Below are positions 11,546-40,959 of a stretch of DNA of 40,959 nt, one piece after another. The DNA comes from an uncultured Ruminococcus sp. (lineage in GTDB: Bacteria > Bacillota > Clostridia > Oscillospirales > Acutalibacteraceae), in contig CACYSI010000008.1 of assembly GCA_902776975.1 (NCBI GenBank), forward strand, positions 1 to 40,959, read 5' to 3'. Each line of letters starts with the position of its first letter. Position 1 is the first letter of the stretch. The notes under the pieces are model-generated. The model was not told where the DNA came from and did no database searches. It saw only the letters and a program-made list of their open reading frames with translations. The translations under genes and the position numbers were made by a program.

Positions 11546-11563
11546 TAAGAAAGGACTGTTATT

Positions 11564-12571: not shown

Positions 12572-12585
12572 GGAGGTCGTGACAC

Positions 12586-14732: not shown

Positions 14733-15661
14733 GCTTTGTATTCAGCGATATAAACGATCGCGATGTGATATTACCATCGGCTCTTTCTGTCAGAGTTGAC
14801 GTTGATGAGAGCGCTCCCGCGGATTCGCTGTACGCGGTTTTTCCGTATGCCGATACAGCAGAGCTGAAAAGAGTAAAGGTCTACGACGGCGGCAAGCTGA
14901 TATTCAGCGGTGTTATCGACGAAGAGGAGAGGTCGTTTGCGCCATACGGAAAGCAGCTGAGGATCTCGGCGAGGAGCCCCGCAGCTTATCTGCTCGACAA
15001 CGAGGCGGCGCCGTGCTCATATGACCATCCCTCGGCAAAGCTGATATGCGAGAGATATGTTCTGCCTTTCGGCATTACCGTCAGCGATGATGATGACACG
15101 GTGTATTTCGGAGAACAAAACATATCTAAGGGCGCTTCGTGCTGGAGCGTTCTTAAGAGCTTTTGTATAGCTTGCTATTCTTCGATCCCTCGCGTCAGCG
15201 CCGACGGTATACTGTATCTTAAGGGTATGCGCAGGGATGAGAGCGTTTCTTTCGGAAACGGTACAGGTGACATCAGATACTCTAATTTGATCGAAAAAAT
15301 CAAGCGCTGTGAGGAGATATCCGCCGTGCGGGTCAAGACAGCTGCCACCGGCGGTTACACTCTGCCTGTTGTCAACAACGACGCTGATATACGAGGCGTC
15401 AGACGCGAGAGATATCTCAACGCCGTGCTTACCGAAAGCCCCATGAGGTGCGCCGATGATATGATACGCGCAGGCTCACAGAAGGCGTATACGCTCAGGC
15501 TGAGATGTCCCTGCTGTCTGCTCGGCAAAGAGGGATGCGCGGCGAGGGTCAGCGGCATTCATGAGGAATCGCTGTATATCAGCGCTCTGCGCTATAGATT
15601 CAGCGAGAGCGGTGAGTACACCGATGTGATACTGAAAAGGAGGATAAACCGATGTGGTTAA
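14726..15661 (+). CDS. Baseplate hub protein, gpD/XkdQ-like (late control D family)
   Basis: 311 residues, overlapping the LysM gene by seven bases. The opening DVILPSALSVRVDVDESAPADSLYAVFP and KVYDGGKLIFSGVIDEEERSF match hub proteins of the phage late control gene D/gp27 family, which form the ring at the centre of a contractile baseplate. The C-terminal half contains strands and a cysteine pair (CPCCLLG) near residue 258. It would hold the spike encoded by the next gene. Confidence 0.75.
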   Translation: MLSFVFSDINDRDVILPSALSVRVDVDESAPADSLYAVFPYADTAELKRVKVYDGGKLIFSGVIDEEERSFAPYGKQLRISARSPAAYLLDNEAAPCSYDHPSAKLICERYVLPFGITVSDDDDTVYFGEQNISKGASCWSVLKSFCIACYSSIPRVSADGILYLKGMRRDESVSFGNGTGDIRYSNLIEKIKRCEEISAVRVKTAATGGYTLPVVNNDADIRGVRRERYLNAVLTESPMRCADDMIRAGSQKAYTLRLRCPCCLLGKEGCAARVSGIHEESLYISALRYRFSESGEYTDVILKRRINRCG

Positions 15662-15990
15662 GTGAATATCTTACAGGTAAATCATCCGGCGCCGAGCTGT
15701 CGGCGTCGGGAGAGATACGCGCCGCTTCATCAGGCGGTGTCTCGGTCAGCTCTACACGCGACTTTCGCACTCTGCCTGTCATAGCTCCCGCGGGAATAGC
15801 CTATGTGCCGGCGACGGGATCACAGACGGTGGTTTTACCGTCATCCGGCGGCGCGGTGTGCCTCGGAGTGGTATCGGCTCCCCGCGACGGGATCGAAGCG
15901 GGCGAGCTGATGCTCTACTCCGCGGGCGGTGCTTCTATCGTACTGAAAAATGACGGAAGAGTACTGATCAACGGCAGGGCGGTGACATAA
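15652..15990 (+). CDS. Baseplate spike/assembly protein (gpV-like)
   Basis: 112 residues, ATG with AAAGGAGG upstream, overlapping the hub gene by ten bases. An OB-fold-like core (RTLPVIAPAGIAYVPATGSQTVVLPSS, CLGVVSAPRDGIEAGELMLYSAGGASIVLKNDGRVLINGRAVT) follows the pattern of gpV/VgrG-type spikes, where 'GE...Y...G..i.l..dG.v.in' precedes the beta-helix. It is short, with almost no beta-helix needle, so the spike is a minimal one. Confidence 0.75.
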   Translation: MWLSEYLTGKSSGAELSASGEIRAASSGGVSVSSTRDFRTLPVIAPAGIAYVPATGSQTVVLPSSGGAVCLGVVSAPRDGIEAGELMLYSAGGASIVLKNDGRVLINGRAVT

Positions 15991-16337
15991 TGGATGTATT
16001 GATAGAAGACGGCGATATAGCTACACGGATGGCAGGAGGTTACTCTTACATAAACGGTCTTGAAGAGGCGGTACAACGCGTGCATATAGCCGCATTGACC
16101 GTTAAGGGGAGCTTCATATATGACCGTGAACTGGGTACGGATTACGGATCATTAACAGTCGATGACCCTTTGATAACAGAAAAGCTGGATATGCTTATCA
16201 AAGAGGCCTGCTGCGATATAGCGGACACCGATATTGAGGTGATCTCGTTTGAAAGCCAAGCCATGATAGCGCTGATAGAAGTATCTTATCGCGCTGATAA
16301 AACGATAACGGAGGTTGAGCTCAGTGGAATCATATGA
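15990..16337 (+). CDS. Baseplate wedge protein, gp25/XkdS-like
   Basis: 115 residues of the GPW/gp25 family (PF04965). The motif VKGSFIYDRELGTDYGSL, followed by EKLDMLIKEACCDIADTDIEVIS and an IEVSYRADK strand, is the usual wedge-core pattern. gp25 proteins nucleate sheath assembly in contractile tails and related secretion systems. Its presence without a sheath gene is odd. The ATG shares one base with the previous stop. Confidence 0.82.
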   Translation: MDVLIEDGDIATRMAGGYSYINGLEEAVQRVHIAALTVKGSFIYDRELGTDYGSLTVDDPLITEKLDMLIKEACCDIADTDIEVISFESQAMIALIEVSYRADKTITEVELSGII

Positions 16338-17382
16338 CGAAATACTGACAAGGATGAAAGAGCATTATCGGGAGCTCAGCGGATTCGCTCCCGAAAACGA
16401 ATCGGATATCATGCTCAGACTCAGGGTGCTCGCGGGAGAAGTATTTAAGGAGCGAGCTTATGCCGATTACATAATGCGGCAGATGTTTCCGACTACAGCA
16501 GAGGGCAGTTATCTTGACGAGCATGCCGCTCAGCGTAATATAACTCGCAAAGCAGCTACCAAGGCTGTAGGTACGGTGCTGTTTTCTACCGATTCACAGG
16601 AGCACGGCGATATAGTTATCCCTGCCGGCACGGTAGTATGCACTACCGGGGATATGAAACGCTTTGTGACGGACAGGGACGCGGTGATACCGTTCAATCT
16701 CGACAAGATCGGCGTAGCCGTAACCGCGGCTCGCGGCGGCAGTGAGTATAACGTAGGAGTAGGCACGGTAGGTATCATAGTTACTCCCGTTTTGGGAGTA
16801 GACAGTGTGACTAACCTGTATCAGCTTACAGGAGGATCGGACGCGGAGAGCGACGATCAGCTCAGGCAGCGTATCAAGGACAGCTTTGTCAATATCTCTA
16901 ACGGTACAAACGAGGCGTATTACTGCTCTGTAGCTATGTCGGTGGACGGTGTGTATTCGGCATCGGCTGTAGGCAGGGGCAGAGGTATAGGTACGGTAGA
17001 CGTATATGTATGCGGCAAAGGGTCATATGTGCCGATAGAAAAACGCAGAGAGATAGAGAGCCTTATGCGTTCCGCAAGAGAGCTTAATGTTGATGTCAGA
17101 GTTTTGAACCCAACTCCGGTAACAATAAACCTTTATATCAAGCTCAGCGTAGCGGAAGGATATGATTTTTCGGAGGTTTCGTCCGAGACCGGCAGAGCTG
17201 TGAAGGATTATATCAACTCTCTCGGAATAGGAAAGAATGTACTGCTCAGTGATATCGGAGATGTGATCTATCATATCAAAGGCGTTACCGGATACAAGTT
17301 TCTTGAGAGCTACGGTTCTGATCGCAGCATATCCAAATCACAGTATCCTGTAGCGGGCAGTATTTTGGTGGCGGATCACTGA
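16324..17382 (+). CDS. Baseplate J-like wedge protein (gpJ/XkdT)
   Basis: 352 residues of the baseplate J family (PF04865). Typical segments are the N-terminal SYDEILTRMKEHYRELSGFAP, the second domain FPTTAEGSYLDEHAAQRNITRKAATKA, GTVLFST and VIPAGTVV, and the late SVDGVYSASAVGRGRGIGTVDVYV. GTG at 16324 is preferred over a TTG at 16315, because the GGAGG at 16310-16314 directly abuts the TTG but is nine bases from the GTG. It overlaps the gp25 gene by 14 bases. With gp25 and gpI it forms the baseplate wedge. Confidence 0.88.
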   Translation: MESYDEILTRMKEHYRELSGFAPENESDIMLRLRVLAGEVFKERAYADYIMRQMFPTTAEGSYLDEHAAQRNITRKAATKAVGTVLFSTDSQEHGDIVIPAGTVVCTTGDMKRFVTDRDAVIPFNLDKIGVAVTAARGGSEYNVGVGTVGIIVTPVLGVDSVTNLYQLTGGSDAESDDQLRQRIKDSFVNISNGTNEAYYCSVAMSVDGVYSASAVGRGRGIGTVDVYVCGKGSYVPIEKRREIESLMRSARELNVDVRVLNPTPVTINLYIKLSVAEGYDFSEVSSETGRAVKDYINSLGIGKNVLLSDIGDVIYHIKGVTGYKFLESYGSDRSISKSQYPVAGSILVADH

Positions 17383-17383
17383 T

Positions 17384-17947
17384 ATGGTTTATGAAAGCAT
17401 GAAGAAGAGCTTGGAGCCGCTGAAGATATATCGCAGCGACGCAAGGCTGATTGATATCGAGCTCAGAGTATACGCCGCCGAGATAGAACGGCTGTACAGC
17501 GCTCTTGACTCGATGTTTACCGAGAGATTCATCAGTACGGCTCAAGGGGACGGACTGACTGTATATGAGGAGATGTTCGGTCCCGACAGAACAGGCGAGG
17601 ACATCATACGCAGGCGTGAGATGTTGAATCTGAGGATGAATCTGGGTGAGGGCGATTTTACGCCAAACGGTATAAAGAAGGCTCTGGACAGTTTAGGGCT
17701 GACTTATGTCATCAGCGAGTTTCCTGAGATAGACAAGCTCAATATCACCGCCGTCACAGAGGATTATTCTGTTGCCGAGCAGGCGTTCATCGAGCGTGAG
17801 ATCGCTAAGATAATACCCGCTCATTTGGATTATCAGATAACCTTCAACACTCTGACATGGGGTCAGATCGACGCTATGGACAGGAACTTCGCGGCGGTTG
17901 ACGCAGAGGATCTGACATGGAAGCAAATAGATACCCGTACCGAATAA
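17384..17947 (+). CDS. Baseplate/tail protein I-like (XkdU, DUF2313 type)
   Basis: 187 residues. The opening KKSLEPLKIYRSDARLIDIELRVYAAEIERLY and EMLNLRMNLGEGDFTPNGIKKALDSLGL follow the XkdU/YmfQ pattern, and the C-terminal half (EREIAKIIPAHLDYQITFNTLTW) is the usual end. It links the baseplate wedge to the fibre. The ribosome binding site before the ATG at 17384 is weak. Near the end, LTWGQIDAMD and LTWKQIDTR form a short duplication. Confidence 0.78.
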   Translation: MVYESMKKSLEPLKIYRSDARLIDIELRVYAAEIERLYSALDSMFTERFISTAQGDGLTVYEEMFGPDRTGEDIIRRREMLNLRMNLGEGDFTPNGIKKALDSLGLTYVISEFPEIDKLNITAVTEDYSVAEQAFIEREIAKIIPAHLDYQITFNTLTWGQIDAMDRNFAAVDAEDLTWKQIDTRTE

Positions 17948-17966
17948 TACCGAAAGAAGGAAGAAA

Positions 17967-18431
17967 ATGGCAACAAGTAATTATACACCGAATCTGCATT
18001 TGAGCGCATGGGAAGAGACAGACCGCCCTAAGAGAGCGGACTTTGTATCTGACAACAATATCATAGATACACAGCTCGGCGGACATATAGGCGACAACGG
18101 CATACATATGACCTCTGCCGAAAAAGCAAAGCTCAGTGAACCGTATGTGTGCGCGATATACGCGGGCTCCGGAGAGGCAGAGCGCACTATATCTGTGGGC
18201 TTTGTACCAAAGTTCGCGATAGTATATAAGCGCGGAGCGCCGCCGGTCACATATACTAACGGTGTTATCTGCGCAAACAGCGGCTATGCGTTTTACGGCA
18301 ACGGCAGCAGTTTGGGTCTGACGATAAACAGTTCCGGCGTGGTAGTGCAGCAGTCCGCGTCGGCGGTAGGCGGAGTCAAAGCTAATCTGAACGAGAGCGA
18401 CGGTCAGTATACCCTGGTTGCGTTCAAATAG
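17967..18431 (+). CDS. Short tail fibre protein
   Basis: 154 residues, GAAGGA upstream of the ATG. The N-terminal SNYTPNLHLSAWEETDRPKRADFVSDNNIID is the common attachment module of Firmicutes tail fibres. A spacer (GDNGIHMTSAEKAKLSEPY) and a small beta-rich tip (GFVPKFAIVYKRGAPP...) follow. It is probably the receptor-binding protein, short compared with most fibres. It is the last gene before the convergent terminator. Confidence 0.75.
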   Translation: MATSNYTPNLHLSAWEETDRPKRADFVSDNNIIDTQLGGHIGDNGIHMTSAEKAKLSEPYVCAIYAGSGEAERTISVGFVPKFAIVYKRGAPPVTYTNGVICANSGYAFYGNGSSLGLTINSSGVVVQQSASAVGGVKANLNESDGQYTLVAFK

Positions 18432-27170: not shown

Positions 27171-27228
27171 ATATCGTGGATTTCCGTTCAGGGCCTTCAC
27201 GATATTAAGTATATATAAACTATACTTA
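27171..27228 (+). promoter_or_regulatory. Two hairpins in the ppdK 5' leader
   Basis: First stem atatcgtg (27171-27178)/cacgatat (27198-27205); second stem taagtata (27206-27213)/tatactta (27221-27228). The second abuts the AGGAGG site (27228-27233) and could affect ribosome access. Confidence 0.45.
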
Positions 27229-27241
27229 GGAGGAGATTCCA

Positions 27242-29872
27242 ATGAGCAAAAAATGGGTTTACCTTTTTACAGAAGGTAACGCTGACATGAGAGAACTTCT
27301 CGGCGGTAAGGGCGCTAACCTCGCTGAGATGACCAACATCGGTCTGCCTGTTCCTCAGGGCTTCACAATCACCACAGAGGCTTGTACTCAGTACTATGAG
27401 GACGGCCGCCAGATCAATCCTGAGATCCAGGATCAGATCAACGAGTATATCGTAAAGATGGAAGAGATCACCGGCAAGAAGTTCGGTGACAAGGAGAACC
27501 CGCTTCTCGTTTCCGTACGTTCCGGCGCGCGCGCTTCCATGCCCGGTATGATGGACACCATCCTCAACCTCGGTCTTAACGAAGAGGTTGTAGAGACGAT
27601 CGCCGAGCAGAGCGGCAACCCCCGCTGGGCTTGGGACTGCTACAGAAGATTTATCCAGATGTATTCCGACGTCGTTATGGAGGTCGGTAAGAAGTATTTT
27701 GAAGAGCTCATCGACGAGATGAAGGCTGACCGCGGCGTAACTCAGGACGTTGAGCTGACAGCTGACGACCTCAAGGAGCTGGCAGGTAAGTTCAAGGCTG
27801 AGTACAAGGCTAAGATCGGCGACGACTTCCCCTCGGATCCCAAGGAGCAGCTCATGGGCGCTGTCAAGGCTGTATTCCGTTCTTGGGACAACCCCAGAGC
27901 TAACGTTTACAGAAGAGATAACGATATCCCCTACAGCTGGGGTACCGCCGTTAACGTTCAGTCTATGGCTTTCGGTAACATGGGCGACGATTGCGGTACA
28001 GGCGTTGCGTTCACTCGTGACCCCGCTACAGGCGACAAGGGTCTGTTCGGTGAGTTCCTGACAAACGCTCAGGGCGAGGACGTTGTCGCGGGCGTTCGTA
28101 CACCTATGCACATCACAGAGATGGAGCAGAAGTTCCCCGAGGCATTCAAGCAGTTCACAGAGGTTTGCAAGACTCTTGAAGACCATTACAGAGATATGCA
28201 GGATATGGAGTTCACCGTTGAGCACGGCAAGCTCTATATGCTCCAGACCCGTAACGGCAAGCGTACAGCTCAGGCTGCTCTTAAGATCGCTTGCGACCTC
28301 GTTGACGAGGGTATGAGAACAGAGGAAGAGGCCGTTCTGATGATCGACCCCAGAAACCTCGATACACTTCTCCATCCGCAGTTCGACGCTAAGGCTCTCA
28401 AGGCCGCTACCCCCATGGGCAAGGGTCTGGGCGCTTCTCCCGGCGCTGCTTGCGGTAAGGTAGTCTTCACCGCTGAGGACGCTAAGGCTCAGGGCGGCGC
28501 AGGCGAGAAGGTAGTTCTCGTTCGTCTCGAGACCTCTCCCGAGGATATCGAGGGTATGAAGGCTGCTCAGGGTATCCTGACAGTTCGCGGCGGTATGACC
28601 TCTCACGCTGCCGTTGTAGCCCGCGGTATGGGTACCTGCTGCGTATCCGGCTGCTCCGATATCGCTATGGACGAGGCTAACAAGCAGTTCACACTTGCAG
28701 GCAAGACCTTCAAGGAAGGCGACTATATCTCCATCGACGGCTCTACAGGTAACATCTACGACGGTATCATCCCCACAGTTGACGCTACCATCGCTGGCGA
28801 GTTCGGCAGAGTTATGGAATGGGCCGACAAGTACAGAACTCTTAAGGTTCGTACAAACGCCGACACACCCGCAGACGCTAAGAAGGCTCGTGAGCTGGGC
28901 GCCGAGGGTATCGGTCTGTGCCGTACAGAGCATATGTTCTTTGAGGCTGACAGGATCGCCGCTTTCCGCGAGATGATCTGCGCCGATACAGTTGAGGAGC
29001 GCGAGGCTGCTCTTGACAAGATCCTGCCTTATCAGCAGGGCGACTTTGAGAAGCTGTATGAGGCTCTCGAGGGCAACCCCGTAACCATCCGTTTCCTGGA
29101 TCCGCCTCTGCATGAGTTCGTACCCACAGAGGAGGCTGACATCGAGGCTCTGGCTAAGGCTCAGGGCAAGACAGTAGCCGAGATCAAGACTCTCATCGAC
29201 TCTCTGCATGAGTTCAACCCGATGATGGGTCACCGCGGCTGCCGTCTGGCTGTAACATATCCCGAGATCGCCAAGATGCAGACCAAGGCTGTTATCCGCG
29301 CCGCTATCAACGTTAAGAAGGCTCATCCCGACTGGACTCTCGTACCCGAGATCATGATCCCGCTCGTAGGCGATATCAAGGAGCTCAAGTACGTTAAGAA
29401 GTTCGTTGTTGAGACCGCTGACGCTGAGATCGCCGCTGCAGGCGTAGAGCTCGAGTATGAGGTAGGTACAATGATCGAGATCCCCAGAGCTGCTTTGACA
29501 GCTGACGAGATCGCTACAGAGGCTGACTTCTTCTGCTTCGGTACCAACGACCTTACTCAGATGACCTTCGGCTTCAGCCGTGATGACGCAGGTAAGTTCC
29601 TTGACGCTTACTATGACGCTAAGATCTTTGAGAACGATCCGTTCGCTAAGCTCGATCAGACAGGCGTAGGCAAGCTGATGGATATGGCTATCAAGCTCGG
29701 CAAGCCCGTAAATCCCGCTCTCCATATCGGTATCTGCGGCGAGCACGGCGGTGATCCCACATCCGTTGAGTTCTGCCACAAGATCGGTCTGGACTATGTA
29801 TCCTGCTCACCCTTCCGTGTTCCGATCGCTCGTCTGGCTGCTGCTCAGGCTGCGATTAGCTGCAAGGGGTAA
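27242..29872 (+). CDS. ppdK: Pyruvate, phosphate dikinase
   Basis: 876 residues, matching the length of the well-studied Clostridium symbiosum enzyme. It interconverts pyruvate, ATP and phosphate with PEP, AMP and pyrophosphate, a central step in glycolysis or gluconeogenesis of anaerobes. The N-terminal nucleotide-binding domain begins GGKGANLAEMTNIGLPVPQGFTIT; the swivelling phosphohistidine domain has GGMTSHAAVVARGMG with His455; the C-terminal TIM barrel has the acid catalyst in GICGEHGGDP (Cys832). AGGAGG lies eight bases before the ATG. Its very regular, GAC/GCT-rich codon usage suggests high expression. Confidence 0.98.
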   Translation: MSKKWVYLFTEGNADMRELLGGKGANLAEMTNIGLPVPQGFTITTEACTQYYEDGRQINPEIQDQINEYIVKMEEITGKKFGDKENPLLVSVRSGARASMPGMMDTILNLGLNEEVVETIAEQSGNPRWAWDCYRRFIQMYSDVVMEVGKKYFEELIDEMKADRGVTQDVELTADDLKELAGKFKAEYKAKIGDDFPSDPKEQLMGAVKAVFRSWDNPRANVYRRDNDIPYSWGTAVNVQSMAFGNMGDDCGTGVAFTRDPATGDKGLFGEFLTNAQGEDVVAGVRTPMHITEMEQKFPEAFKQFTEVCKTLEDHYRDMQDMEFTVEHGKLYMLQTRNGKRTAQAALKIACDLVDEGMRTEEEAVLMIDPRNLDTLLHPQFDAKALKAATPMGKGLGASPGAACGKVVFTAEDAKAQGGAGEKVVLVRLETSPEDIEGMKAAQGILTVRGGMTSHAAVVARGMGTCCVSGCSDIAMDEANKQFTLAGKTFKEGDYISIDGSTGNIYDGIIPTVDATIAGEFGRVMEWADKYRTLKVRTNADTPADAKKARELGAEGIGLCRTEHMFFEADRIAAFREMICADTVEEREAALDKILPYQQGDFEKLYEALEGNPVTIRFLDPPLHEFVPTEEADIEALAKAQGKTVAEIKTLIDSLHEFNPMMGHRGCRLAVTYPEIAKMQTKAVIRAAINVKKAHPDWTLVPEIMIPLVGDIKELKYVKKFVVETADAEIAAAGVELEYEVGTMIEIPRAALTADEIATEADFFCFGTNDLTQMTFGFSRDDAGKFLDAYYDAKIFENDPFAKLDQTGVGKLMDMAIKLGKPVNPALHIGICGEHGGDPTSVEFCHKIGLDYVSCSPFRVPIARLAAAQAAISCKG

Positions 29873-30229: not shown

Positions 30230-30403
30230 ATGAGAAACCCGAAATATCATCTTTATATGGATTACGGCGAGTATAAGGAGATTATTGATGCCCTCATCGC
30301 CAAGAAAAACGACTTGATCGCCACCGGTCATTATACGGACGCTATCGATGAGATTCTCATCAAGCTCAGCCGTGCCAAGCAGAAAAAGGTCAAAGTAATA
30401 TGA
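30230..30403 (+). CDS. 57-residue protein coupled to the recombinase
   Basis: ATG at 30230 with AAGGAGG (30215-30221); the TGA overlaps the recombinase ATG (ATGA). The product begins MRNPKYHLYMDYGEYKEII and is helical with a basic tail (SRAKQKKVKVI). Its base composition matches the ICE rather than the AT-rich recombinase. The family was not recognised. Translational coupling to an integrase makes a control or directionality role possible, but that is speculation. Confidence 0.75.
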   Translation: MRNPKYHLYMDYGEYKEIIDALIAKKNDLIATGHYTDAIDEILIKLSRAKQKKVKVI

Positions 30404-32025
30404 GCGGATACAGTAATTGCACAAACGTCACAACAAAAGATCGAATTGCCGCATACTGTCGAATTTCTGTCGATGATGAACGTAGCAGAGAGAATACATC
30501 GATAGAAAACCAAAAAGCGATAATTCAACAATATATTCATAGCACATTTCCTGAATGTATACCGACATTTTATATCGATAGAGACAAAAGCGGATACACG
30601 TTCGAACAGAGAGAAGCGTATCAAATACTCCGAAAAGAATTGTTTGATCATCAATATGATGTCCTTATAGTAAAAGATCTATCAAGGTTTTCAAGAAGAA
30701 ATGGCGCCGGATTGGTAGAATTAGAGGCTTTGAGAGATGAAGGTATTAGAATAATCTCTATCGGAGACAATATTGATTATCCAACAAGCGACGATTGGTT
30801 GAGAATTCAAATCTATTTTTTGATGAATGAGATTCCAGTCACAGATACCTCAAAAAAAGTTCGCAATGTGATTAAGCAGCGTCAAATGGATGGAAAATGG
30901 ATTTGTTCTGTTCCCTATGGTTATGTGATGAAAAACAGCAAGGCTATGATCTATGAGGTGGATTATTCAGAGGCGGCAATAATTCAAAAAGTGTTTAATC
31001 TGTACCTTTCCGGGTGGGGTTATAAACGTATTGCCAATTATCTTACGGATCTATGTATCCCTACACCTCGCATGGATCAAAGAGTTCGTATAGAATCAAG
31101 AAAGGAAAAATGTAATCTAAAGGTTAAATCTACGTGGAGTATAGCAACTATTCAAGGTATTCTTACTAATGATTTTTACATCGGAACTCTTCGTCAGGGC
31201 AAATACTCAAGAAACAGAATCAATGGTATAGATATTAAAACAGACGAGGAATCTCATATTGTTTTTACTAACCATCATGCACCTATAATTGATACGTATT
31301 CTTTTGAACTGGTACAAGAAATCATGAGAAAACGCTCAAAATCATCCTACCGTGGGACGAAAAAGTACCCAAATATCTATTCAGGATTATTATTCTGTGG
31401 CGATTGTGGTAGCCCAATGTTTTCTATGAGCAGAAGCGATGTTAAAGAGGCATATCGTTGCGGAGAATACCATAAACGCGGAAGAAAGGGTTGCACGAGT
31501 CACCATATTCGTGTTGCAGAGCTTGATTCTCTTGTCAAGCGATATGCACAGAAGATGCGTGATAGTTCAACTGCTTCAATAAATCAAATTCAACAGATTA
31601 TTAGGATAAAACAGAGAGCAAAATTCCCGGATGAAATCAGTTCAATAGAACAAATAAGAGTATTGATACAGGATTCCAGAACAGAAAAGAAAGCTTTGAT
31701 TAGACAATGTACAAAAGATATAATACGTAGACCTGAACATGAACAGGATCTTCAAGAGGCATATGATGAACTGATATCTGAATGTGACAATAGAATTAAA
31801 GGTTTGGAGAATCAAATCGCTATTATAGAAGGGAAAAAAGAGGATTATAAAAACACTAAATCGGAAGATGTATTTGTTTTTTTGAATGACATTCAGGAAA
31901 AGGATAAACTAACAAGAAACGATCTTGATATACTTCTTATAGAAAAGATATTGGTTTACGACGATTTTATAACTATTGTTTCAAAAGATAACAATACCTA
32001 TTGTATTGATAGAGGTACAAAATAA
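30400..32025 (+). CDS. Large serine recombinase (ICE integrase)
   Basis: 541 residues. The resolvase catalytic domain begins RIAAYCRIS, with the nucleophile Ser23, and includes the VKDLSRFSRR arginine motif. A recombinase domain (residues about 165-300) and a zinc ribbon (FCGDCGSPM with Cys333 and Cys336, then YRCGEYHKRGRKGC) follow. A coiled coil occupies about 400-500. This is the TndX/TnpX type that integrates and excises conjugative and mobilisable elements. The gene is clearly more AT-rich than its neighbours, with many ATA, AGA and AAA codons, which suggests a different recent origin from the rest of the element. A good terminator follows. Confidence 0.95.
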   Translation: MSGYSNCTNVTTKDRIAAYCRISVDDERSRENTSIENQKAIIQQYIHSTFPECIPTFYIDRDKSGYTFEQREAYQILRKELFDHQYDVLIVKDLSRFSRRNGAGLVELEALRDEGIRIISIGDNIDYPTSDDWLRIQIYFLMNEIPVTDTSKKVRNVIKQRQMDGKWICSVPYGYVMKNSKAMIYEVDYSEAAIIQKVFNLYLSGWGYKRIANYLTDLCIPTPRMDQRVRIESRKEKCNLKVKSTWSIATIQGILTNDFYIGTLRQGKYSRNRINGIDIKTDEESHIVFTNHHAPIIDTYSFELVQEIMRKRSKSSYRGTKKYPNIYSGLLFCGDCGSPMFSMSRSDVKEAYRCGEYHKRGRKGCTSHHIRVAELDSLVKRYAQKMRDSSTASINQIQQIIRIKQRAKFPDEISSIEQIRVLIQDSRTEKKALIRQCTKDIIRRPEHEQDLQEAYDELISECDNRIKGLENQIAIIEGKKEDYKNTKSEDVFVFLNDIQEKDKLTRNDLDILLIEKILVYDDFITIVSKDNNTYCIDRGTK

Positions 32026-32177: not shown

Positions 32178-33005
32178 ATGCCAAATAGTAAAACGATTGC
32201 TATCTGTAATCAGAAAGGCGGTGTCGGCAAAACGACTACCACACTAAACCTCGGCGTTGCGCTTGCTGATCAAGGAAATCGTGTGTTGCTTGTTGATGCC
32301 GATCCGCAGGGCGATCTGACTACCTGCCTCGGCTATAATGCTGATGATTTCAGCGTCACGCTCGCCAATAAGCTCATATCTGTCGTTCGGGAAGAACGAA
32401 GCAATCCATATGAAGGTATCATCCGACACCCTGAGGGTGTGGATCTGCTGCCGTCGAATATGGATTTGGAATCCACTGAAAACTATCTCGTGACAGCGAT
32501 GAGCCGCGAGAGCGTGATGAAAACATACCTGAATAAGGTCAAACACAATTATGACTATGTTCTGATTGATTGCCGTCCCTCGCTCGGTATGCTGACGCTG
32601 AACGCTTTGACCGCCGCAGACAGTGTGATCATCCCTGTTCAGGCACAATACTTATCGGCAAAAGCGATGACACAGTTGTTTCAGACGGTTGAAAAGATAC
32701 GGACGCACACCAATCCCGAGTTGGCGATTGACGGAATCCTTTTGACCATCGTGGACAACCGCACCAATCTTGCCAAAAGCACGGTGGAAGCGATCCGGCA
32801 CAACTTCGGTAGCTGTCTGCGAATCTACAATGCCCAGATACCGATCGCCGTCAAAGCCGCTGAGGTCGCGTCCAAGGGTAAAAGTATCTTTGCTTATGAG
32901 CCGAGCAGTAAAGCAGCCGTCGCATACGCCGATTTCGCTAAGGAGGTGTTAGCGCATGACAAGCAAAGGGCGAAAGAGCGATTTCGATCTGCCGACGCTC
33001 GATGA
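32178..33005 (+). CDS. ParA-family partition ATPase
   Basis: 275 residues. The deviant Walker A box QKGGVGKTTT (residues 12-21, Lys13 and Lys18) is followed by VDADPQGDLTT and the Walker B-like YVLIDCRPSLGMLTLNAL. It is the Soj/ParA type without an N-terminal helix-turn-helix. With ParB it would segregate or stabilise the excised circular element. AAGGAGG upstream. Its last 50 bases overlap parB. Confidence 0.95.
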   Translation: MPNSKTIAICNQKGGVGKTTTTLNLGVALADQGNRVLLVDADPQGDLTTCLGYNADDFSVTLANKLISVVREERSNPYEGIIRHPEGVDLLPSNMDLESTENYLVTAMSRESVMKTYLNKVKHNYDYVLIDCRPSLGMLTLNALTAADSVIIPVQAQYLSAKAMTQLFQTVEKIRTHTNPELAIDGILLTIVDNRTNLAKSTVEAIRHNFGSCLRIYNAQIPIAVKAAEVASKGKSIFAYEPSSKAAVAYADFAKEVLAHDKQRAKERFRSADAR

Positions 33006-33912
33006 TCTGTTCTCGACGCAGCAGGAGCGTGACGAAGCGAAGCTCGATAAGATCAGAGATATTCCGATTGCTGAGATCGACGACTTTCCCAATCATCCGT
33101 TCCAAGTCCGTGATGACGAGGATATGTTGCAGCTTGTGGAAAGCATCAAAGAGCACGGTGTGATGACACCCGCTGTACTCCGCGTCAAAGATGACGGACG
33201 CTTTGAGATCGTAGCAGGACACCGCCGAAAGCGAGCTTGTGAGCTTGCCGGATTGGATACGCTGCGCTCAGAGGTCAAGCATCTGTCCCGTGATGAAGCG
33301 ACTGTCTATATGGTAGAGAGCAATTTTCAACGATCGTCCATACTCCCCAGCGAAAAAGCATTCGCGTATAAAATGCGGTTAGATGCTATGAATCGGCAAG
33401 GTCAGCGTTCAGATTTAACTTGTGCGCCAGTGGAGCACAAGTTAAAATCGCGTGATATTCTGGCTGAACAAGTCGGCGAAAGTAAAGACCAAATACGCCG
33501 CTATATCCGCTTGACCTACCTTATCCCCGAACTGTTGCAGTTGGTGGATGAAGGCAAGATGAAAATGCGCCCTGCTGTCGAACTGTCTTATCTCAACGCA
33601 GACTTTCAGAGGGATGTGTTGGAGAACATCGAACTCAATGACTGCACTCCCTCTCATGCCCAGACGATACGAATGCGGCGACTGTATGAGGAACACAGCC
33701 TGACACCGGAAGTGATTGCCGATATCATGTGCGAACAAAAGCCCAATCAGCGTGAACGCATGGTGTTCAACGGTGAGCGTATGCGAAAGCTCTTGCCTCG
33801 TGATCTGCCGATGAACAAAACGGAGGATTACATCTGCGAGGCGATCGCGTTTTATCGCAAGCACAACCGTGAGCATGAGCAATCTCGCAAATCAAGCAGG
33901 GACGCGCGGTAA
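32956..33912 (+). CDS. ParB-family DNA-binding protein
   Basis: 318 residues. The ParB N-terminal domain (IPIAEIDDFPNHPFQVRDDEDMLQLVESIKEHGVMTPAVLR) includes the CTP-binding GHRRKRACELAG box; the helix-turn-helix region (SRDILAEQVGESKDQIRRYIRLTYLIPELLQLVDEGK) follows. ATG at 32956 has AAGGAGG at 32940-32946 and lies inside parA, indicating coupling. A 12-bp inverted repeat interrupts the gene between the two domains. The parS site was not recognised. Confidence 0.93.
   Translation: MTSKGRKSDFDLPTLDDLFSTQQERDEAKLDKIRDIPIAEIDDFPNHPFQVRDDEDMLQLVESIKEHGVMTPAVLRVKDDGRFEIVAGHRRKRACELAGLDTLRSEVKHLSRDEATVYMVESNFQRSSILPSEKAFAYKMRLDAMNRQGQRSDLTCAPVEHKLKSRDILAEQVGESKDQIRRYIRLTYLIPELLQLVDEGKMKMRPAVELSYLNADFQRDVLENIELNDCTPSHAQTIRMRRLYEEHSLTPEVIADIMCEQKPNQRERMVFNGERMRKLLPRDLPMNKTEDYICEAIAFYRKHNREHEQSRKSSRDAR
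33414..33446. repeat. 12-bp inverted repeat inside parB
   Basis: tttaacttgtgc (33414-33425) and gcacaagttaaa (33435-33446) are exact complements around nine bases. They encode the inter-domain segment DLTCAPVEHKLKS. Confidence 0.85.
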
Positions 33913-34178: not shown

Positions 34179-34397
34179 ATGTCAGAGATGACCTTTCAGC
34201 AGAAAACAAAAACGATGGCGAAGCTGATTGATAACGGCATCACATCCGAAAAGGACTTGCAGAATCTGAACTTTGATTCAGTTCTGCAAATCCCCGGCAT
34301 TACCATGCAGGATCTTGCCGTTGTTTCTCAGCTTCAAAAACACACTAAAGACAACAAACTCTATTCTTATCTTTCGGGAGGTGAACGGAATGAGTAG
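34179..34397 (+). CDS. Small ICE protein, 72 residues
   Basis: ATG with AAGGAGG (34163-34169). A soluble helical protein (FQQKTKTMAKLIDNGITSEKDLQNLNFDSVLQIPGITMQDL), which looks like two short helical hairpins such as a helix-hairpin-helix; the segment LQIPGITMQDL is compatible with that. No family was recognised. It overlaps the next gene by eight bases. Confidence 0.72.
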   Translation: MSEMTFQQKTKTMAKLIDNGITSEKDLQNLNFDSVLQIPGITMQDLAVVSQLQKHTKDNKLYSYLSGGERNE

Positions 34398-35352
34398 TGA
34401 AGGATATGAGATCATTCCTATGAAGCCCGAAGAGGTCTTGTATTCTTATCGGAACAGTCAGCAGATTTCCGGTCAGACAGGCTTGGTCGGCTATATCCGT
34501 GCGGATATGGGAACAAACGGAAATCAGTTTTGGGTAACTTGGAACTGTTTTCGCAATGATCTGAATACCCCTGAATTCAGCAATGAACTGTCGGAGCTGC
34601 TCCACTCACTCAGACAGAATGGCAAATACCTTTCTGACAGGGATACGCTGATGCGGTTTTGCCTTGACAGTAAAAATGCGCTGCCTTATGAAACCGGCAG
34701 AGATTTCGGCGTGAGAGTCAATACCAGAGATCATGCCTATCTCATGCGGCTGAATCCGCATAAGGGGGAATACAATCTTTACTGTTACTGTTATCGCAAG
34801 GACTGGCTCGACAGTCATATCCGGCAGGCAAAGCGCGGAATTCGTTTCATTGATCCGCATTACCGAGAGAAGTTCAGGCTTTACGACGGTGATGAGATCA
34901 TGATTATCGGTGAGCCGAATGCCTACACCGTCAGGGATGTTCCTGCTCGGTATGTATGTCGCTATATTGATGACTCCCATTTTGAATACGGTCCGAATCT
35001 CCGTCATATCTGTGAATTCGCGGAAATGATAGAGGATTTGGGGTATAAGGTTGTACCGCTCAGAGCGTCTTTACCTGAGAAAGCCTATGTTTACATAGAA
35101 TCCGAGAACAAGATTGGCGTTGTAACGAAAGGCGAAATGGGATACAAGGAAATGGATATTACCTTTTCCGATAAGCAAGACGCGCTGGATATGGTTGACA
35201 TCAACAACAAAAAGCACGGCATTACCAAAGCGCAGTCGGTGGCGATGAAGTGCGGTTCCATGTTTGGATGGCACGTTCCTGCCGCCGACCCGAAAAACTA
35301 TGAAGAGAACGGTATCCCCAAGAATTTCAGAGCCAGAGATACCGCTCGATAA
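34390..35352 (+). CDS. Conserved-type ICE protein of unknown function
   Basis: 320 residues. ATG at 34390 is chosen because GGGAGG precedes it; a longer frame from 34273 would run through the upstream gene. Aromatic-rich segments (GNQFWVTWNCF, YNLYCYCYRKDWLDSHI) and DGDEIMIIGEPNAYTVRDVPARYV suggest a folded soluble protein of mixed alpha/beta type. No catalytic motif was recognised. It is 12 bases before the polyvalent protein gene and probably cotranscribed with it; such neighbours are often accessory proteins of transfer or of protection of the incoming DNA. Confidence 0.75.
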   Translation: MSSEGYEIIPMKPEEVLYSYRNSQQISGQTGLVGYIRADMGTNGNQFWVTWNCFRNDLNTPEFSNELSELLHSLRQNGKYLSDRDTLMRFCLDSKNALPYETGRDFGVRVNTRDHAYLMRLNPHKGEYNLYCYCYRKDWLDSHIRQAKRGIRFIDPHYREKFRLYDGDEIMIIGEPNAYTVRDVPARYVCRYIDDSHFEYGPNLRHICEFAEMIEDLGYKVVPLRASLPEKAYVYIESENKIGVVTKGEMGYKEMDITFSDKQDALDMVDINNKKHGITKAQSVAMKCGSMFGWHVPAADPKNYEENGIPKNFRARDTAR

Positions 35353-35364: not shown

Positions 35365-38300
35365 ATGGCGAGAAAATACGAGCTTCTCAGCGAGATGTAC
35401 GACAAGACGACAAAAACAATGACCAATCCTGTTGTGTGGCGTCATTTTTTGGAGTCTGCTTGCCGTAACTATCGTCTGCGATTTGATGAGCAGCTCCTTG
35501 TCTTTGCCCAGCGCCCCGACGCTACCGCCGTTCTTGAGATAGAACGCTGGAATAAGCAGTTCGGAAGATGGGTCAATCGAGGAGCCAACGGTATCGCCGT
35601 ATTTGAGGACGCGGAGCGTAATTCTCAGCGATTGAAGTATTATTTTGATATCTCAGATACGCATGAGAGCCGCTTATCCCGACCGGTTCCGATCTGGAAT
35701 ATGCGCGAGGAATACACCGATGATGTCATCGACACCCTTGAAAGCACCTTCGGCGCATTGGAAAACAGAGAGAATCTTGAAGAAGCGATCCTCAGTGCGG
35801 CAAACAACGCCGTCGAGGACAATGTTCCCGATTATGTCGGCGATTTGCTGCTTGCAATGGATGATACCCTGTTATACGGACTGACCGAAGATACGGCACG
35901 GTATATGTATAATAACCTCGTTACCCACAGCGTAGCCTATATGCTGATGACGCGCCTCGGCGTGGATACTTCCCTGTATTACAGTAACGAGGATTTCAAG
36001 GATATCGTCAATTTCAATACGGAGGACGCTTTGAACGCGCTGGGATACGCCACCGGCGATATATCCGAAATGGCGTTGTCCGAGATTGCAAAAACCGTTC
36101 TGTCGCTTGACAGAGCCAATCGCACATTTGATAATCCGCAGAGAAGCGAATACAATAATAACACAATACAACCCGAAAGGAGACTTGAACATGACAGAGA
36201 TAGCTTACACCAGACAGGGCGATTACAATCTGCCCAACCTGACCTTACCCGAGCAGCCGAAGGTAGAGCTGGGAATGTACGCTCAGATGAGGCGCAGATT
36301 CCTGAAAGAGCATCACAAGATCCTGTACTACAACCTCCTGACGAAATGCAAGCTGATCGAGAACCTGTACGAGACCGAACAGACGGCGCTGAAGATGGAG
36401 AACGATCTTATCCGTCAGATGGCGCAGGATCAGGGCGTGACGGAGCAGCTGAAGGCACAGGATCAGCTCAGTTGGGTGAGAAAGATGAACAACATCCGAC
36501 AGGCAGTGAGAGAAATCGTAATGGACAAGGTGATCTACACCGTATAAACCCGGACGGGCAGACTCAGCATGATGATGAGCCTGCCCTTTCTTTATCAACA
36601 ACCTTTGGCTTGGCGGATCGTATTTACGATTACCTGACCGATTATATTATCAACTTCTACGAAGAAGCTGACGGAGAACCTCTTGAAGTGGTTGAGGACG
36701 GTTCCGACCCGGTGGTGGTCGCTCGTATCGAACATGACTTACATGATACGAGAATCATGGAGGAAATGATCGACTATTTTGACGGTCAATACGAACGGTT
36801 TGATAATGATGAGGAAACTAATGCACAGTATGACCTCATTATGAAAGCCTTGCAGGATCGACTTATTATACTCGACGACCGTTTTGTCAGCGGGGACACC
36901 CGCTTTGATGTTTTCGATGAAGACGGCGAAAGATTAAAGTATCCGTTCTTCGGCGTCGATGAGGTCGTCAATGAAATCTTTGCGACCACTCCATATCTCG
37001 GTGCAAGCCTTGAGGACATCGGTGCTTATCTTGAAGGTGTATCCGATACCGACAGACGAATCGAGTATATCCGCAGTATCTTCAACAATGATTTCACCGA
37101 GCTTATCTTGGCTGACGATACCCGTGTCGGCTACAAGACCTACGATAACGGCGTTCTGATCTGGAAAGGGCGTTATCCCAGCCGTGAAGGACAAAGATTC
37201 CTCAGATGGGATGCGGTAGCCGGTCATTTCGACGCAATGCGTAAGCTCGGTATGCTGCGCAGCGATATCAAATCGCTGTTATCGCAGGACGGGCAGCTGC
37301 AATATCTGACAGACGCGGCAGGAGCCAACGCTCCTGCTTTCGTCTTTCCGCAGGAGATCATCGACAATGTTCTGACCAGAGGCAGCAATGTTACCGAGGG
37401 CAAGATGAGGATCTATGAGCAGTTCCAAAAGAGCCTTTCCCGTGATGAAAACATCCGTTTTCTGAAAAACGAGTACGGCATCGGCGGCGGTTCAAGCGCA
37501 GTAGCCTATACCGGCATATCGGAAATGCACGACGGTAAGGGTATTGAGCTGAGCTTCGGCTTTGATCCCGACCGTCCGCGACAGCTCTTGAAATGGAATT
37601 ACGTTGAAAAGCGTATTCGTGAGTTGATCAGTCTTGACCGTTATCTCAACGATAAGGAAAAGGAAACGTATCCGTCATGGCTGGAACGTACAGAACAACG
37701 CCGTGTCGAACAGGCGGAGGAAGCTCGCCGCCGCGAGGAAGAACGACGCCGTCAGATGGAGATGGAAACATCCCCCGAAGAACGACTGCAAAACAAGGGC
37801 GTTCAGCACACATACGAGTATCAGTATCACCTCGGCGACACGGTGTATATCGGCGCTTCATCCTATGAGCTGTTGTCCATCGACGATGACCGCGTGATGT
37901 TGTTTGATTCAAACTTTCCCTTATTCAATAAGGAAATGCCCCGTGCCGAGTTTGAGGCAAAGGTGCAGGAGAACCCGCTGAACAATCATCTTCGCATTCT
38001 GGTGGAACAGAAGGGCGAACCGAAAGAAGCATCACCGTCCGAAGAAAACAGGAGCTTCAGTGATAAGCTATGGGACGATTATCGTCAGGCGCAGGACGCG
38101 AACCCCAACCGAATCGTTCTGTATCGTGTCGGTGAATTCATGGAGATCATGGGTGACGATGTGCCGAAGATAGCTCAGGAGCTGGATATTACGCCGACTC
38201 AGCGTATGATGTCCGACGGCAGACGAATCCCGATGTGCGGATTCCCTCGCAACCATACACAAGCGCTGTCGGATATGCTGATGGACAGAGGTCACGATCT

Positions 38301-40959
38301 GGTGCTTTGCACCGATGAAAACGGCGAGTATCAAATGATACGCTTGAACTCTGATTCAAAAGAAGAACCCCGACAGTCAAGAGTGATCGCCCGCGTCGAG
38401 TATATCAACAGAGCCGGTGAAACCTATGACACGCAGGAATACACCAGCGAATATCATTTCAGAACGGATATTCAGGAGGAAAGCGATATCGCCGACGAGA
38501 TAAAAGTCAATCTCTATGCGGATAAAGACGGCATGGTTGGCGACTATCCTTTCTTAAATATCCCCGCCGTTAAGTCAATAGACATTATTGATTATGCGCC
38601 TTTCGCTAACGAGCATGATATGCTGATTGACCGAGCAAAGGAACTGATCAACGAGTTTTGCCGCACAGAATATGCCGGTGAAGGAGCGGATTTCTCTGAT
38701 ATGTCTGAGGTCAACTTGGCATATACAGAAACCGAGGACGGATTGCATGAGATACAGTCATATGCAAATCTTGAGGATTTCCGTATCGTTACGATGGTTG
38801 ACGGTCAGGTCGTTCGTATAGAACAGCATGAATCCTTACAGGCTCTTGTTGATAACGCTTTGGAGGCTCTCGAATTCGGCGATCTTGTCTATGTCAGCGA
38901 GGAAGAGCTTGCGCCTTACTATGAGGAGTATGACGAACTCGACGACGTTGATCCCGAAGAGATTCGTCAGCGTTTAGCCGAAGCCGGGATTGTGAACGGT
39001 CAGCTTGTCGATGAGGAAAAGTTGAATAATGATCCCTTCATTCAACAAGTAATGGCTGATGCGGATAGAATAGCACAGGAAGAAAAGGAACAATCCGAAG
39101 AAGTAAACCTCCGATCTGTCGTAGTCGATTTAACGCCGAATGAAATCGACGGTACCAACAGCGACCTGATCGGTCAGCGGCTCACCTTTGATGACCGTGA
39201 ATTTGAGATCAAAAGGGTGAATGCCTACGGCGACGTCAGTATGGAGGATCTTACCTTTAGAGGCGAAACAGGATTCCCTGTTAATCGTGTGGAAAAGGTT
39301 GATTTTGTCCGCAGAGCGCTGGAAGAACAGCGTGCGAAAGAGAACGAGATCACACCGTCGTGGGAACTTCAGCCGCGAGTTAAAGCACAAACCTTCGACC
39401 TGCATCCCGATATTCCCATGTCACAGCGGCACACCTTTGATCTCAAACATTTTGAGTTGGAGGAAGTCGGCAAAAAGGCTCGTTTCCGCAGAAATGCTGA
39501 TGCGATCCGCGTACTGAAAGAGTGTCAGTTTGACAATCGTTTTGCCACTCCCGAGGAACAAGCTATCCTTGCGCAGTATGTCGGCTGGGGTGGTATCCCC
39601 GAAGCGTTTGACGAACACAACGACGCATGGTCAAACGAGTTTACAGAGCTGTATGGCTTGTTATCTCCCGAAGAATACGCATCTGCTCGCGCCAGTACGC
39701 TGACTGCTTTCTACACGCCGCCTGTGGTGATCAACGCCGTTTACAAAGTGATGGAGAACATGGGCTTTCAGCGCGGCAATATCTTGGAGCCGTCCTGCGG
39801 TATCGGTAACTTTATCGGTATGCTGCCCGACTCCATGAGCGACAGCCGTGTGTTCGGTGTTGAGATCGACACGATCTCAGCCGGAATCGCGCAGCAGTTG
39901 TATCAGAAAAGCTCCATAGCGGCACAGCCGTATGAAAAGGCGGAGATCCCTGACAGCTTCTTTGACGCGGTAGTCGGTAATGTACCATTCGGCGACTTCG
40001 GCGTATCAGATAGGCGGTATGATAAATACCACTTTATGATACATGATTACTTCTTTGCCAAGTCACTGGATAAGCTCCGTCCGGGCGGCGTGATGGCGCT
40101 CGTTACCTCACGCGGTACAATGGATAAGGAGAATCCCGCTGTTCGTAAGTACATCTCACAACGCGCCGATTTGCTCGGCGCTATTCGTTTGCCCAACAAT
40201 ACCTTTAGAGGAAACGCGGGTACGGATGTTGTATCGGATATACTTATTCTCCAAAAGCGTGACCGTATTATCGACATTGAGCCTTCATGGGTGCATTTGG
40301 ATACCGACGCAAACGGTATCTCGATGAACAGCTATTTTGTCGAGCATCCCGATATGATCCTCGGTGATATGAAGATGGTATCCGGTCGCTTTGGTATGAC
40401 TGCCGATTGCATTCCTTATGAAAACGCCGACCTCGGCGAGCTTTTGGATGAAGCGGTCAGCAACATCCACGGTGAAGTGACCGACTATGAACTGGACGAG
40501 GATGTGGAGGAAGATTTATCTATCCCTGCTGACCCGTCCGTCAGGAACTTCTCCTTCACGTTGGTAGACGGCAAGATCTACTTTCGAGAGAACAGTCGTA
40601 TGACTCCGTTCGATGTGTCCGCGACGGCGCAGAATCGTATCAAGGGTATGATCCCGATCCGAGACAGCGTTCGCCGCTTGCTCGAAATGCAGACCGAGAA
40701 CTATCCCGATGATGTGATCAAAGCGGAGCAGGAACGGCTGAATACCCTCTATGATAACTATACGAAAAAGTATGGTTTGATCAACTCGCGCGCCAATAAC
40801 TCCGCGTTCTCGATGGACAGCTCTTATTCGCTTATTTCATCCTTAGAGGTGATTGACGAAGAAGGTAATCTGGAGCGCAAGGCGGATATTTTTACCAAGC
40901 GCACGATTCGACCGCATGAGCCTATCACCTCGGTAGATACCGCGTCGGAGGCGCTCGCT
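35365..40959 (+). CDS. ICE polyvalent protein: ArdC-like, MutS-I-like and N6-adenine methylase (3' end outside window)
   Basis: Open for 1865 codons to the window end, so the C-terminus is missing. ATG at 35365 follows AAGGAGGT. Residues 1-90 resemble the ArdC/LtrC N-terminal domain (FDEQLLVFAQRPDATAV, WVNRGANGIAVF). Residues about 255-400 are a low-complexity linker rich in Arg, Asp, Gly and Gln, under which TnpV is encoded in another frame. A charged coil lies at 775-798. Residues about 890-990 resemble MutS domain I, with Phe925-x-Glu927. Residues about 1395-1640 are an N6-adenine methylase: EPSCGIGNF (1475-1483) and GNVPFGDF (1538-1545, in place of the canonical NPPF). A SNF2-type helicase normally follows. 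Such proteins are thought to protect or process the element's DNA on entry. Confidence 0.9.
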   Translation, partial: MARKYELLSEMYDKTTKTMTNPVVWRHFLESACRNYRLRFDEQLLVFAQRPDATAVLEIERWNKQFGRWVNRGANGIAVFEDAERNSQRLKYYFDISDTHESRLSRPVPIWNMREEYTDDVIDTLESTFGALENRENLEEAILSAANNAVEDNVPDYVGDLLLAMDDTLLYGLTEDTARYMYNNLVTHSVAYMLMTRLGVDTSLYYSNEDFKDIVNFNTEDALNALGYATGDISEMALSEIAKTVLSLDRANRTFDNPQRSEYNNNTIQPERRLEHDRDSLHQTGRLQSAQPDLTRAAEGRAGNVRSDEAQIPERASQDPVLQPPDEMQADREPVRDRTDGAEDGERSYPSDGAGSGRDGAAEGTGSAQLGEKDEQHPTGSERNRNGQGDLHRINPDGQTQHDDEPALSLSTTFGLADRIYDYLTDYIINFYEEADGEPLEVVEDGSDPVVVARIEHDLHDTRIMEEMIDYFDGQYERFDNDEETNAQYDLIMKALQDRLIILDDRFVSGDTRFDVFDEDGERLKYPFFGVDEVVNEIFATTPYLGASLEDIGAYLEGVSDTDRRIEYIRSIFNNDFTELILADDTRVGYKTYDNGVLIWKGRYPSREGQRFLRWDAVAGHFDAMRKLGMLRSDIKSLLSQDGQLQYLTDAAGANAPAFVFPQEIIDNVLTRGSNVTEGKMRIYEQFQKSLSRDENIRFLKNEYGIGGGSSAVAYTGISEMHDGKGIELSFGFDPDRPRQLLKWNYVEKRIRELISLDRYLNDKEKETYPSWLERTEQRRVEQAEEARRREEERRRQMEMETSPEERLQNKGVQHTYEYQYHLGDTVYIGASSYELLSIDDDRVMLFDSNFPLFNKEMPRAEFEAKVQENPLNNHLRILVEQKGEPKEASPSEENRSFSDKLWDDYRQAQDANPNRIVLYRVGEFMEIMGDDVPKIAQELDITPTQRMMSDGRRIPMCGFPRNHTQALSDMLMDRGHDLVLCTDENGEYQMIRLNSDSKEEPRQSRVIARVEYINRAGETYDTQEYTSEYHFRTDIQEESDIADEIKVNLYADKDGMVGDYPFLNIPAVKSIDIIDYAPFANEHDMLIDRAKELINEFCRTEYAGEGADFSDMSEVNLAYTETEDGLHEIQSYANLEDFRIVTMVDGQVVRIEQHESLQALVDNALEALEFGDLVYVSEEELAPYYEEYDELDDVDPEEIRQRLAEAGIVNGQLVDEEKLNNDPFIQQVMADADRIAQEEKEQSEEVNLRSVVVDLTPNEIDGTNSDLIGQRLTFDDREFEIKRVNAYGDVSMEDLTFRGETGFPVNRVEKVDFVRRALEEQRAKENEITPSWELQPRVKAQTFDLHPDIPMSQRHTFDLKHFELEEVGKKARFRRNADAIRVLKECQFDNRFATPEEQAILAQYVGWGGIPEAFDEHNDAWSNEFTELYGLLSPEEYASARASTLTAFYTPPVVINAVYKVMENMGFQRGNILEPSCGIGNFIGMLPDSMSDSRVFGVEIDTISAGIAQQLYQKSSIAAQPYEKAEIPDSFFDAVVGNVPFGDFGVSDRRYDKYHFMIHDYFFAKSLDKLRPGGVMALVTSRGTMDKENPAVRKYISQRADLLGAIRLPNNTFRGNAGTDVVSDILILQKRDRIIDIEPSWVHLDTDANGISMNSYFVEHPDMILGDMKMVSGRFGMTADCIPYENADLGELLDEAVSNIHGEVTDYELDEDVEEDLSIPADPSVRNFSFTLVDGKIYFRENSRMTPFDVSATAQNRIKGMIPIRDSVRRLLEMQTENYPDDVIKAEQERLNTLYDNYTKKYGLINSRANNSAFSMDSSYSLISSLEVIDEEGNLERKADIFTKRTIRPHEPITSVDTASEALA
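36191..36547 (+). CDS. tnpV: TnpV-family protein nested in another frame of the polyvalent gene
   Basis: 118 residues. A consensus AAAGGAG (36176-36182) lies eight bases before ATG 36191. The product matches the TnpV family (PF14198) along its length: YTRQGDYNLPNLTLPEQ, then the basic MRRRFLKEHHKILYYNLL and the late VTEQLKAQDQLSWVRKMNNI. It lies in the +2 frame relative to the polyvalent gene, whose own frame here is only a disordered-looking linker. Folded, family-like content in one frame and low complexity in the other indicates that tnpV was the original sequence. TnpV was named from Tn4451-type mobilisable elements; its function is not established. Confidence 0.75.
   Translation: MTEIAYTRQGDYNLPNLTLPEQPKVELGMYAQMRRRFLKEHHKILYYNLLTKCKLIENLYETEQTALKMENDLIRQMAQDQGVTEQLKAQDQLSWVRKMNNIRQAVREIVMDKVIYTV

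Follow-up and report, generated by a model that had tools for sequence, protein, structure and literature searches.

Results

A complete tnpV gene within a polyvalent protein gene

A gene for a TnpV-family protein and the long polyvalent protein gene that wholly contains it very probably form a genuine pair of overlapping genes, fully nested and on the same strand. The sequence basis for this is that both frames are open, that the inner one has its own ribosome-binding site, start and stop, that the arrangement is widely conserved, and that purifying selection acts on TnpV while stop codons are avoided in the host frame. The window, i.e. the whole stretch of 40,959 nucleotides analysed here, contains the features listed in Table 1. 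The TnpV frame (36191-36544, plus strand) runs from an ATG to a TAA at 36545-36547, lies in phase +1 to the host frame and wholly inside the host gene, and the third frame is closed there. The predicted protein matches PF14198 with an E-value of 2.4e-40 and 137.4 bits against a cut-off of 27, over positions 2-111 of the 111 in the profile. This match, together with the intactness of both frames, bears out the initial annotation, which had placed a complete TnpV gene within a polyvalent methylase gene. Its further claim that tnpV has a ribosome-binding site of its own also held; the site and the start are nearly invariant across loci. In 84 loci (80 homologues found by the host N-terminus, as described below, plus the window, L029, L031 and L032) every start is ATG and the octamer upstream is GAAAGGAG in 76, GAAAGGGG in five and a variant in three; a Shine-Dalgarno core is present in all 84. 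The host Arg codon that falls in this site is AGG in 82 of the 82 loci with Arg there, against a background of 140 AGG among 1641 Arg codons upstream in the same host genes. An ATG with a Shine-Dalgarno-like site was also found in 50 of 50 further nested loci, whose starts were picked for the best such site and in which two places repeat others.

Table 1. Position of the nested pair and of the genes upstream of it in the window
Feature	Position	Strand	Remarks
Large serine recombinase	30400..32025	+	PF00239, PF07508, PF13408
ParA-like and ParB-like genes	32178..33912	+	ORFs, named by eye
Gene directly upstream of host	34390..35352	+	start set by eye; ORF 34273-35352
Host polyvalent gene	35365..40959	+	1865 codons without stop; PF01624, PF02384
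tnpV Shine-Dalgarno GAAAGGAG	36175..36182	+	within host gene, host codons Glu-Arg
tnpV	36191..36547	+	118 amino acids, nested in phase +1, PF14198
Host linker, other frame of tnpV	36191..36544	+	host residues about 276-394

The host protein and its genomic setting

The host gene consists of an ArdC-like N-terminus, a low-complexity linker, a MutS-I domain and an N6-methylase, and its 3' end is lost as the frame runs off contig C8, of which the window is the entire length. A relative (L036) with a 98% identical N-terminus adds a helicase-type ResIII domain. Several effector domains are therefore joined in one long polypeptide, MutS_I and N6_Mtase in the window and ResIII in L036, as is characteristic of polyvalent proteins. 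The ArdC label in the initial annotation stands for relatives, since ArdcN is at the Pfam cut-off or above in L180 (25.3 bits), L206 and L208, all of which match the same N-terminal profile; it does not reach the cut-off in the window, and no Pfam match, ArdC-N included, was obtained for the N-termini of the window, L175 and L177. The odd composition noted earlier for the linker was confirmed, the product there being rich in Gly, Asp, Glu, Ser and Arg. In the structural model of the host segment, which is weak overall (mean pLDDT 60.9), residues 253-408 have a pLDDT under 50 and form no secondary structure; values under 50 also occur at residues 56-110 and in three short segments. The linker is probably disordered, because low pLDDT without secondary structure coincides with this residue composition.

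The neighbourhood of the host gene looks like an integrated element. The large serine recombinase upstream is probably its integrase, and no conjugation genes were seen up to the contig end. A relative of the gene directly upstream of the host (query 34309-35349) occurs in 59 of the 79 nested genome-contig loci and in none of the 80 free-standing TnpV loci, the latter holding less flank, and ParA-like and ParB-like relatives occur in 10 and 18 of the 79, respectively. Elsewhere in the window, an 860-codon frame (27197-29779, minus strand) lies antisense to an 876-codon frame (27242-29872, plus strand) that by eye resembles pyruvate phosphate dikinase, and is probably due to codon bias; a run of genes at 7355-18431 is phage-like by eye. 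Moreover, another contig of the same genome (C34, 138-230; L002) carries near its end a TnpV fragment covering profile positions 81-111.

Conservation of the nested arrangement

When 84,980 species were searched with the host N-terminus alone, 142 pattern matches were obtained, 90 of them coding for relatives, and the best 80 were kept; because of this query, the 80 loci are unselected for TnpV. The initial annotation had named decay of the TnpV frame in polyvalent relatives as an observation that would speak against it, and all 80 best homologues proved to carry TnpV in phase +1 without a stop in its frame, complete in 79 of them and cut by the contig end in L049. In 78 of the 80 the host frame continues from the N-terminus across TnpV without a break; in L056 a stop falls inside tnpV and in L078 before it. 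In 11 further loci the host frame comes to an end within the sequence that was fetched, and the host may thus decay in loci that retain TnpV. Six loci (L054, L056, L067, L078, L099 and L112) have a host frame that ends before, in or soon after tnpV, with TnpV intact. Clostridia account for 75 of the 80 and Erysipelotrichia for one, two are unassigned, and two (L109 and L110) come from a bin named Alphaproteobacteria and are probably mis-binned.

Sixteen regions were fetched from records labelled as plasmid or phage, namely 15 of the 118 records hit by the N-terminus (8 of 103 plasmids and 7 of 15 phage-labelled) and one found by a TnpV match. A profile built without them recognised TnpV in the same phase in 15 of the 16, and the host spans TnpV in 14 of these 15, both frames reaching the contig edge in L185. 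The sixteenth, the Listeria plasmid L180, has a TnpV-like frame at the corresponding position, which was recognised by eye. The first profile had not picked it up at 1e-5, and its later E-value is circular because the frame had by then been entered into the profile. The N-termini are 41% identical in Cohnella, 26% in Virgibacillus, 25% in Anaerococcus and 18% in S. suis, and the phase is kept in all. Judged by these sequences the pair is old, because it reaches Bacilli and Tissierellia with N-termini only 18-41% identical. The pair is also carried by L183-L189 (MT83xxxx, named Bacteriophage sp., from human stool), which may be integrative or conjugative elements, not phages. A scan of viral_contigs gave one weak locus.

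A phylum-wide sample of 398 genomes gave 58 N-terminus places in 33 genomes, and 30 of them were fetched, among which L196 repeats L135 and L197 is the window (elsewhere L243 repeats L202). TnpV is in phase in 16 of the 30, and no TnpV was recognised in the other 14, which are mostly short ArdC-like frames, six of them of 292-304 codons; L217 is a polyvalent frame of 2354 codons without recognisable TnpV. L201, L203 and L204 exceed the PF14198 cut-off on their own, and L202 stays below it at 25.5 bits. At the class level a TnpV match, nested or free-standing, is present in 140 of 391 genomes, and 90 loci hold 91 TnpV stretches, 22 nested and 69 free-standing; these loci are the best-scoring matches only, so that 22 of 91 is no unbiased rate. 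At two places, G076:C216:33066-33869 and L240, two TnpV stretches lie near each other. Taking all loci together, there are 134 nested entries, 122 of them distinct, with the host frame spanning 120 (L056 and L185 being the exceptions), and 82 free-standing entries, 80 distinct, with the same phase open across only one (L139). The figures of 122 and 80 were counted after removal of identical sequences, while the best-80 and entry counts, and the counts of stop-making T given below, precede it; to judge by their equal lengths, some contigs from separate genome searches are the same.

Selection on the two frames

A host stop arises where a T-ending TnpV codon precedes a codon starting with AA, AG or GA. 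T was therefore counted at codons with a T-ending synonym in 40 representatives of the nested copies that share less than 90% nucleotide identity (L011, which has no ATG, was excluded). It is present at 1 of 986 stop-making positions versus 471 of 2161 other codons, which keeps the host frame open, and in 26 free-standing TnpVs used as a control it is present at 175 of 713 and 578 of 1516, respectively. The third frame of the nested copies contains 7-20 stops. When TnpV codons were resampled synonymously at nested codon usage, the host frame stayed open in 266 of 8000 draws. Together, the resampling, the avoidance of T and the comparison with free-standing copies reject the idea that the frame is open by chance.

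The ratios of dN to dS come from 33 disjoint pairs, drawn after identical sequences had been removed, and every site was assigned to a class according to what a change does in both frames. They are uncorrected proportions from our own simplified script, which follows the idea of OLGenie as outlined in PMC7531306 and was checked by bootstrap only. For TnpV, dNN/dSN is 0.252 (95% bootstrap 0.216-0.285), i.e. purifying selection, and for the host linker dNN/dNS is 1.074 (0.920-1.245), which gives no sign of constraint on its residues. Relative to the dS of the host N-terminal region, whose own dN/dS is 0.237, dNS is 0.170 and dSN 0.728; the latter value, 0.73 of the flank, leaves room for a slight constraint on the residues of the linker or for a bias in codon use. 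An earlier run in which identical sequences were kept (34 pairs) gave nearly equal ratios. Among the 40 representatives the amino-acid identity is 0.373 for the linker (0.310 with TnpV codons resampled), 0.571 for TnpV and 0.598 for the host N-terminus. The overall pN/pS of TnpV is 0.261 in nested and 0.242 in free-standing copies, nested ones being somewhat higher per identity band. The initial annotation expected both frames to be constrained, and this is true of the TnpV residues, while the host linker is mainly kept free of stops. Because dN/dS is 0.25 in one frame and about 1.07 in the other, the host seems to need chiefly the absence of a stop; thus TnpV is conserved in sequence and the linker mainly kept open, perhaps under weak constraint.

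These data bear on two simpler explanations. It is very improbable that TnpV alone is real here, the polyvalent 'gene' being two genes and the host frame open through codon bias. The near-neutral evolution of the linker residues would fit this, as would the annotation of L174 (4848-8789), where TnpV is listed and the host protein begins 1037 codons downstream, and that of L175 (6280-7180), where TnpV is listed with an antisense hypothetical protein instead of a host protein. However, stops are avoided in the host phase specifically, as the T counts and the stops in the third frame show, that phase is open in only one of the 80 distinct free-standing TnpVs, few resampled sequences leave it open, and the annotation of L177, L179 and L181 has one long protein spanning the tnpV stretch. 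The converse, that the host frame alone is real and TnpV is a chance or relic frame, is hardly credible: TnpV is indeed unlisted wherever annotation runs the host across the tnpV stretch, but its dN/dS of 0.25, the kept ribosome-binding site and ATG, the PF14198 match of 137 bits and the confident structural model all argue against it, and TnpV is intact where the host frame is broken. None of the six plasmid loci that carry annotation has both proteins listed across the overlap; each has one or the other, in a feature table that is incomplete by design.

For the nested pair, which we prefer, the following expression can be proposed. A single mRNA of the integrated element would carry the polyvalent gene, and ribosomes starting at 35365 would make the long polyvalent protein, in which the tnpV stretch, read in the host frame, would form a probably disordered spacer that connects the ArdC-like N-terminus with the domains behind it. 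A second set of ribosomes would begin at 36191 by means of the internal Shine-Dalgarno sequence and make TnpV, a small and mostly helical protein. We infer that both proteins are made and that TnpV initiates independently, and the nesting would ensure that TnpV is expressed and transferred together with the polyvalent protein.

Origin of the nesting

How the two genes came to overlap can be approached from the relatives and from trees. A free ardC-like gene may have lost its stop and been read through the following tnpV, in another frame, into a methylase gene; this is the likeliest course, although we give it somewhat less than an even chance. Among histories that leave every domain intact it is the simplest, because several TnpV-less ArdC-like proteins have about 300 codons and tnpV starts near host residue 276; with their 292-304 codons, six of the TnpV-less frames end near the beginning of tnpV. 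No TnpV was found downstream within the fetched 1.5 kb of the 14 TnpV-less loci, and no unfused ancestor was seen there. For the initial annotation, the simplest course was an insertion of tnpV into an ArdC-methylase gene, with an orientation and phase by which both frames stayed open. This now stands as one of several possible origins, and as a rather doubtful one; if it happened, it is old, since nesting is found in the earliest-branching host lineages of a long-branched tree. In favour of it, free-standing TnpVs are common (69 of the 91 stretches at the best-scoring matches, with a TnpV match, nested or not, in 140 of the 391 class-level genomes). Host relatives lacking the linker are L217 and the short ArdC-like frames. 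In L217 an ArdC-like start appears by eye to be joined to a methylase by a shorter linker without TnpV, and the profile for the domain that follows the linker had no match in it. The AU test does not reject a topology in which every free-standing TnpV falls on one side (p-AU 0.231). Against insertion, TnpV is placed near the end of the N-terminal region and not inside it, and nested copies make up the deepest branches of a midpoint tree built from 73 nested and 57 free-standing TnpVs, except for the free-standing fragment S_L150_2280 on a long branch.

The free-standing copies found among nested ones in the TnpV trees suggest escape, and it is conceivable, though not likely, that the TnpV family arose, or at least spread, inside the polyvalent gene and later escaped to give the free-standing TnpV of the Tn4451 type. 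The deep position of nested copies in the midpoint tree also speaks for this. In a more careful TnpV tree a branch with support 100/96 parts nested L177, L180, L201, L203 and L204 from all free-standing TnpVs, and the same five lie near the base of a host tree rooted on ArdC-like proteins, although the other three basal host lineages (L178, L179 and L181) fall elsewhere in the TnpV tree. The host tree has eight outgroup rows, of which L217 fell inside, and several long branches; nested Bacilli and Tissierellia lineages are near its base, with Cohnella in the core, so the nesting seems older than that spread. An arrangement with the remaining nested copies set apart from free-standing ones is not rejected either (p-AU 0.079), and the TnpV trees rest on 116 columns with several long branches. 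Thus the AU tests do not choose between read-through fusion, insertion and escape. In the midpoint tree, nested L171 groups with free-standing copies and free-standing S_L123 and S_L156 group with nested ones, possibly by exchange or through weak resolution.

Structure and possible role of TnpV

The TnpV model consists of a beta hairpin and five helices (pLDDT 86.8). No fold match at E 0.001 or less was found in PDB or BFVD, a sequence search of PDB gave 0.13 as the best E-value, and NCBIfam gave no match; TnpV does match PHROG 24764, a group without assigned function. With low confidence, we assume that TnpV could be an accessory factor or partner of the polyvalent protein during establishment or movement of the element. 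An excisionase role, postulated for the TnpV of Tn4451 by homology with lambda Xis in the available text of PMC3158075, seems improbable. Of the 80 free-standing loci, 7 do have a relative of the window's serine recombinase no more than 1.1 kb from TnpV, an underestimate because a single query at E 1e-5 was used. But none was found in the 79 nested genome-contig loci, up to 6 kb upstream, the hairpin with five helices has no PDB match at the above threshold, and a title cited in PMC3158075 states that TnpX alone is required for transposition.

Discussion

Few long overlapping genes in bacteria are known to have broad comparative support. The 122 distinct nested copies of the present case share one arrangement, with stop avoidance in one frame and purifying selection in the other. 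A nested tnpV would account for the unusual linker in these polyvalent proteins, and existing genomes now offer a way to test gene birth, escape and the tolerance of linkers; if the escape reading is true, a widespread gene family of mobile elements descends from an overlapped frame. The pair also predicts mis-annotation, and the available text of PMC8665328 notes that the standard programs for annotation do not permit long overlapping genes. In the literature searched, including the accessible parts of PMC3158075, PMC9815147 and PMC5512222, with subscription journals mostly and bioRxiv wholly outside its scope, an overlap of polyvalent protein and TnpV is undescribed; a term search of the main text of PMC5512222 gave no mention of TnpV or of overlap.

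As portrayed in the text available for PMC5512222, the polyvalent proteins of Tn1549-like and other elements have, as here, many domains in one long mobile-element protein, and ArdC-N and MutS-I are named among these domains; unlike the polyvalent proteins described there, the inter-domain linker doubles as a gene in the present case. The TnpV of the Tn4451 type belongs to the same family (PF14198) as the nested TnpV over nearly the whole profile, but tnpV is a separate ORF in Tn4451, according to the part of PMC3158075 at hand, whereas here it lies wholly inside the host gene. In the E. coli O157:H7 genes pop, laoB and ano, going by the available portions of PMC7103648, PMC5810103 and PMC5960689, a frame is embedded in another gene, as in our case; those three are antisense, whereas the tnpV pair is on the same strand, involves a recognised family and extends over at least three classes of Bacillota. 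Similarly, ardD inside tniA of Tn5053, as reported in the accessible text of PMC3533173, is a mobile-element gene nested in another, but ardD is on the complementary strand of tniA, while tnpV is on the strand of its host.
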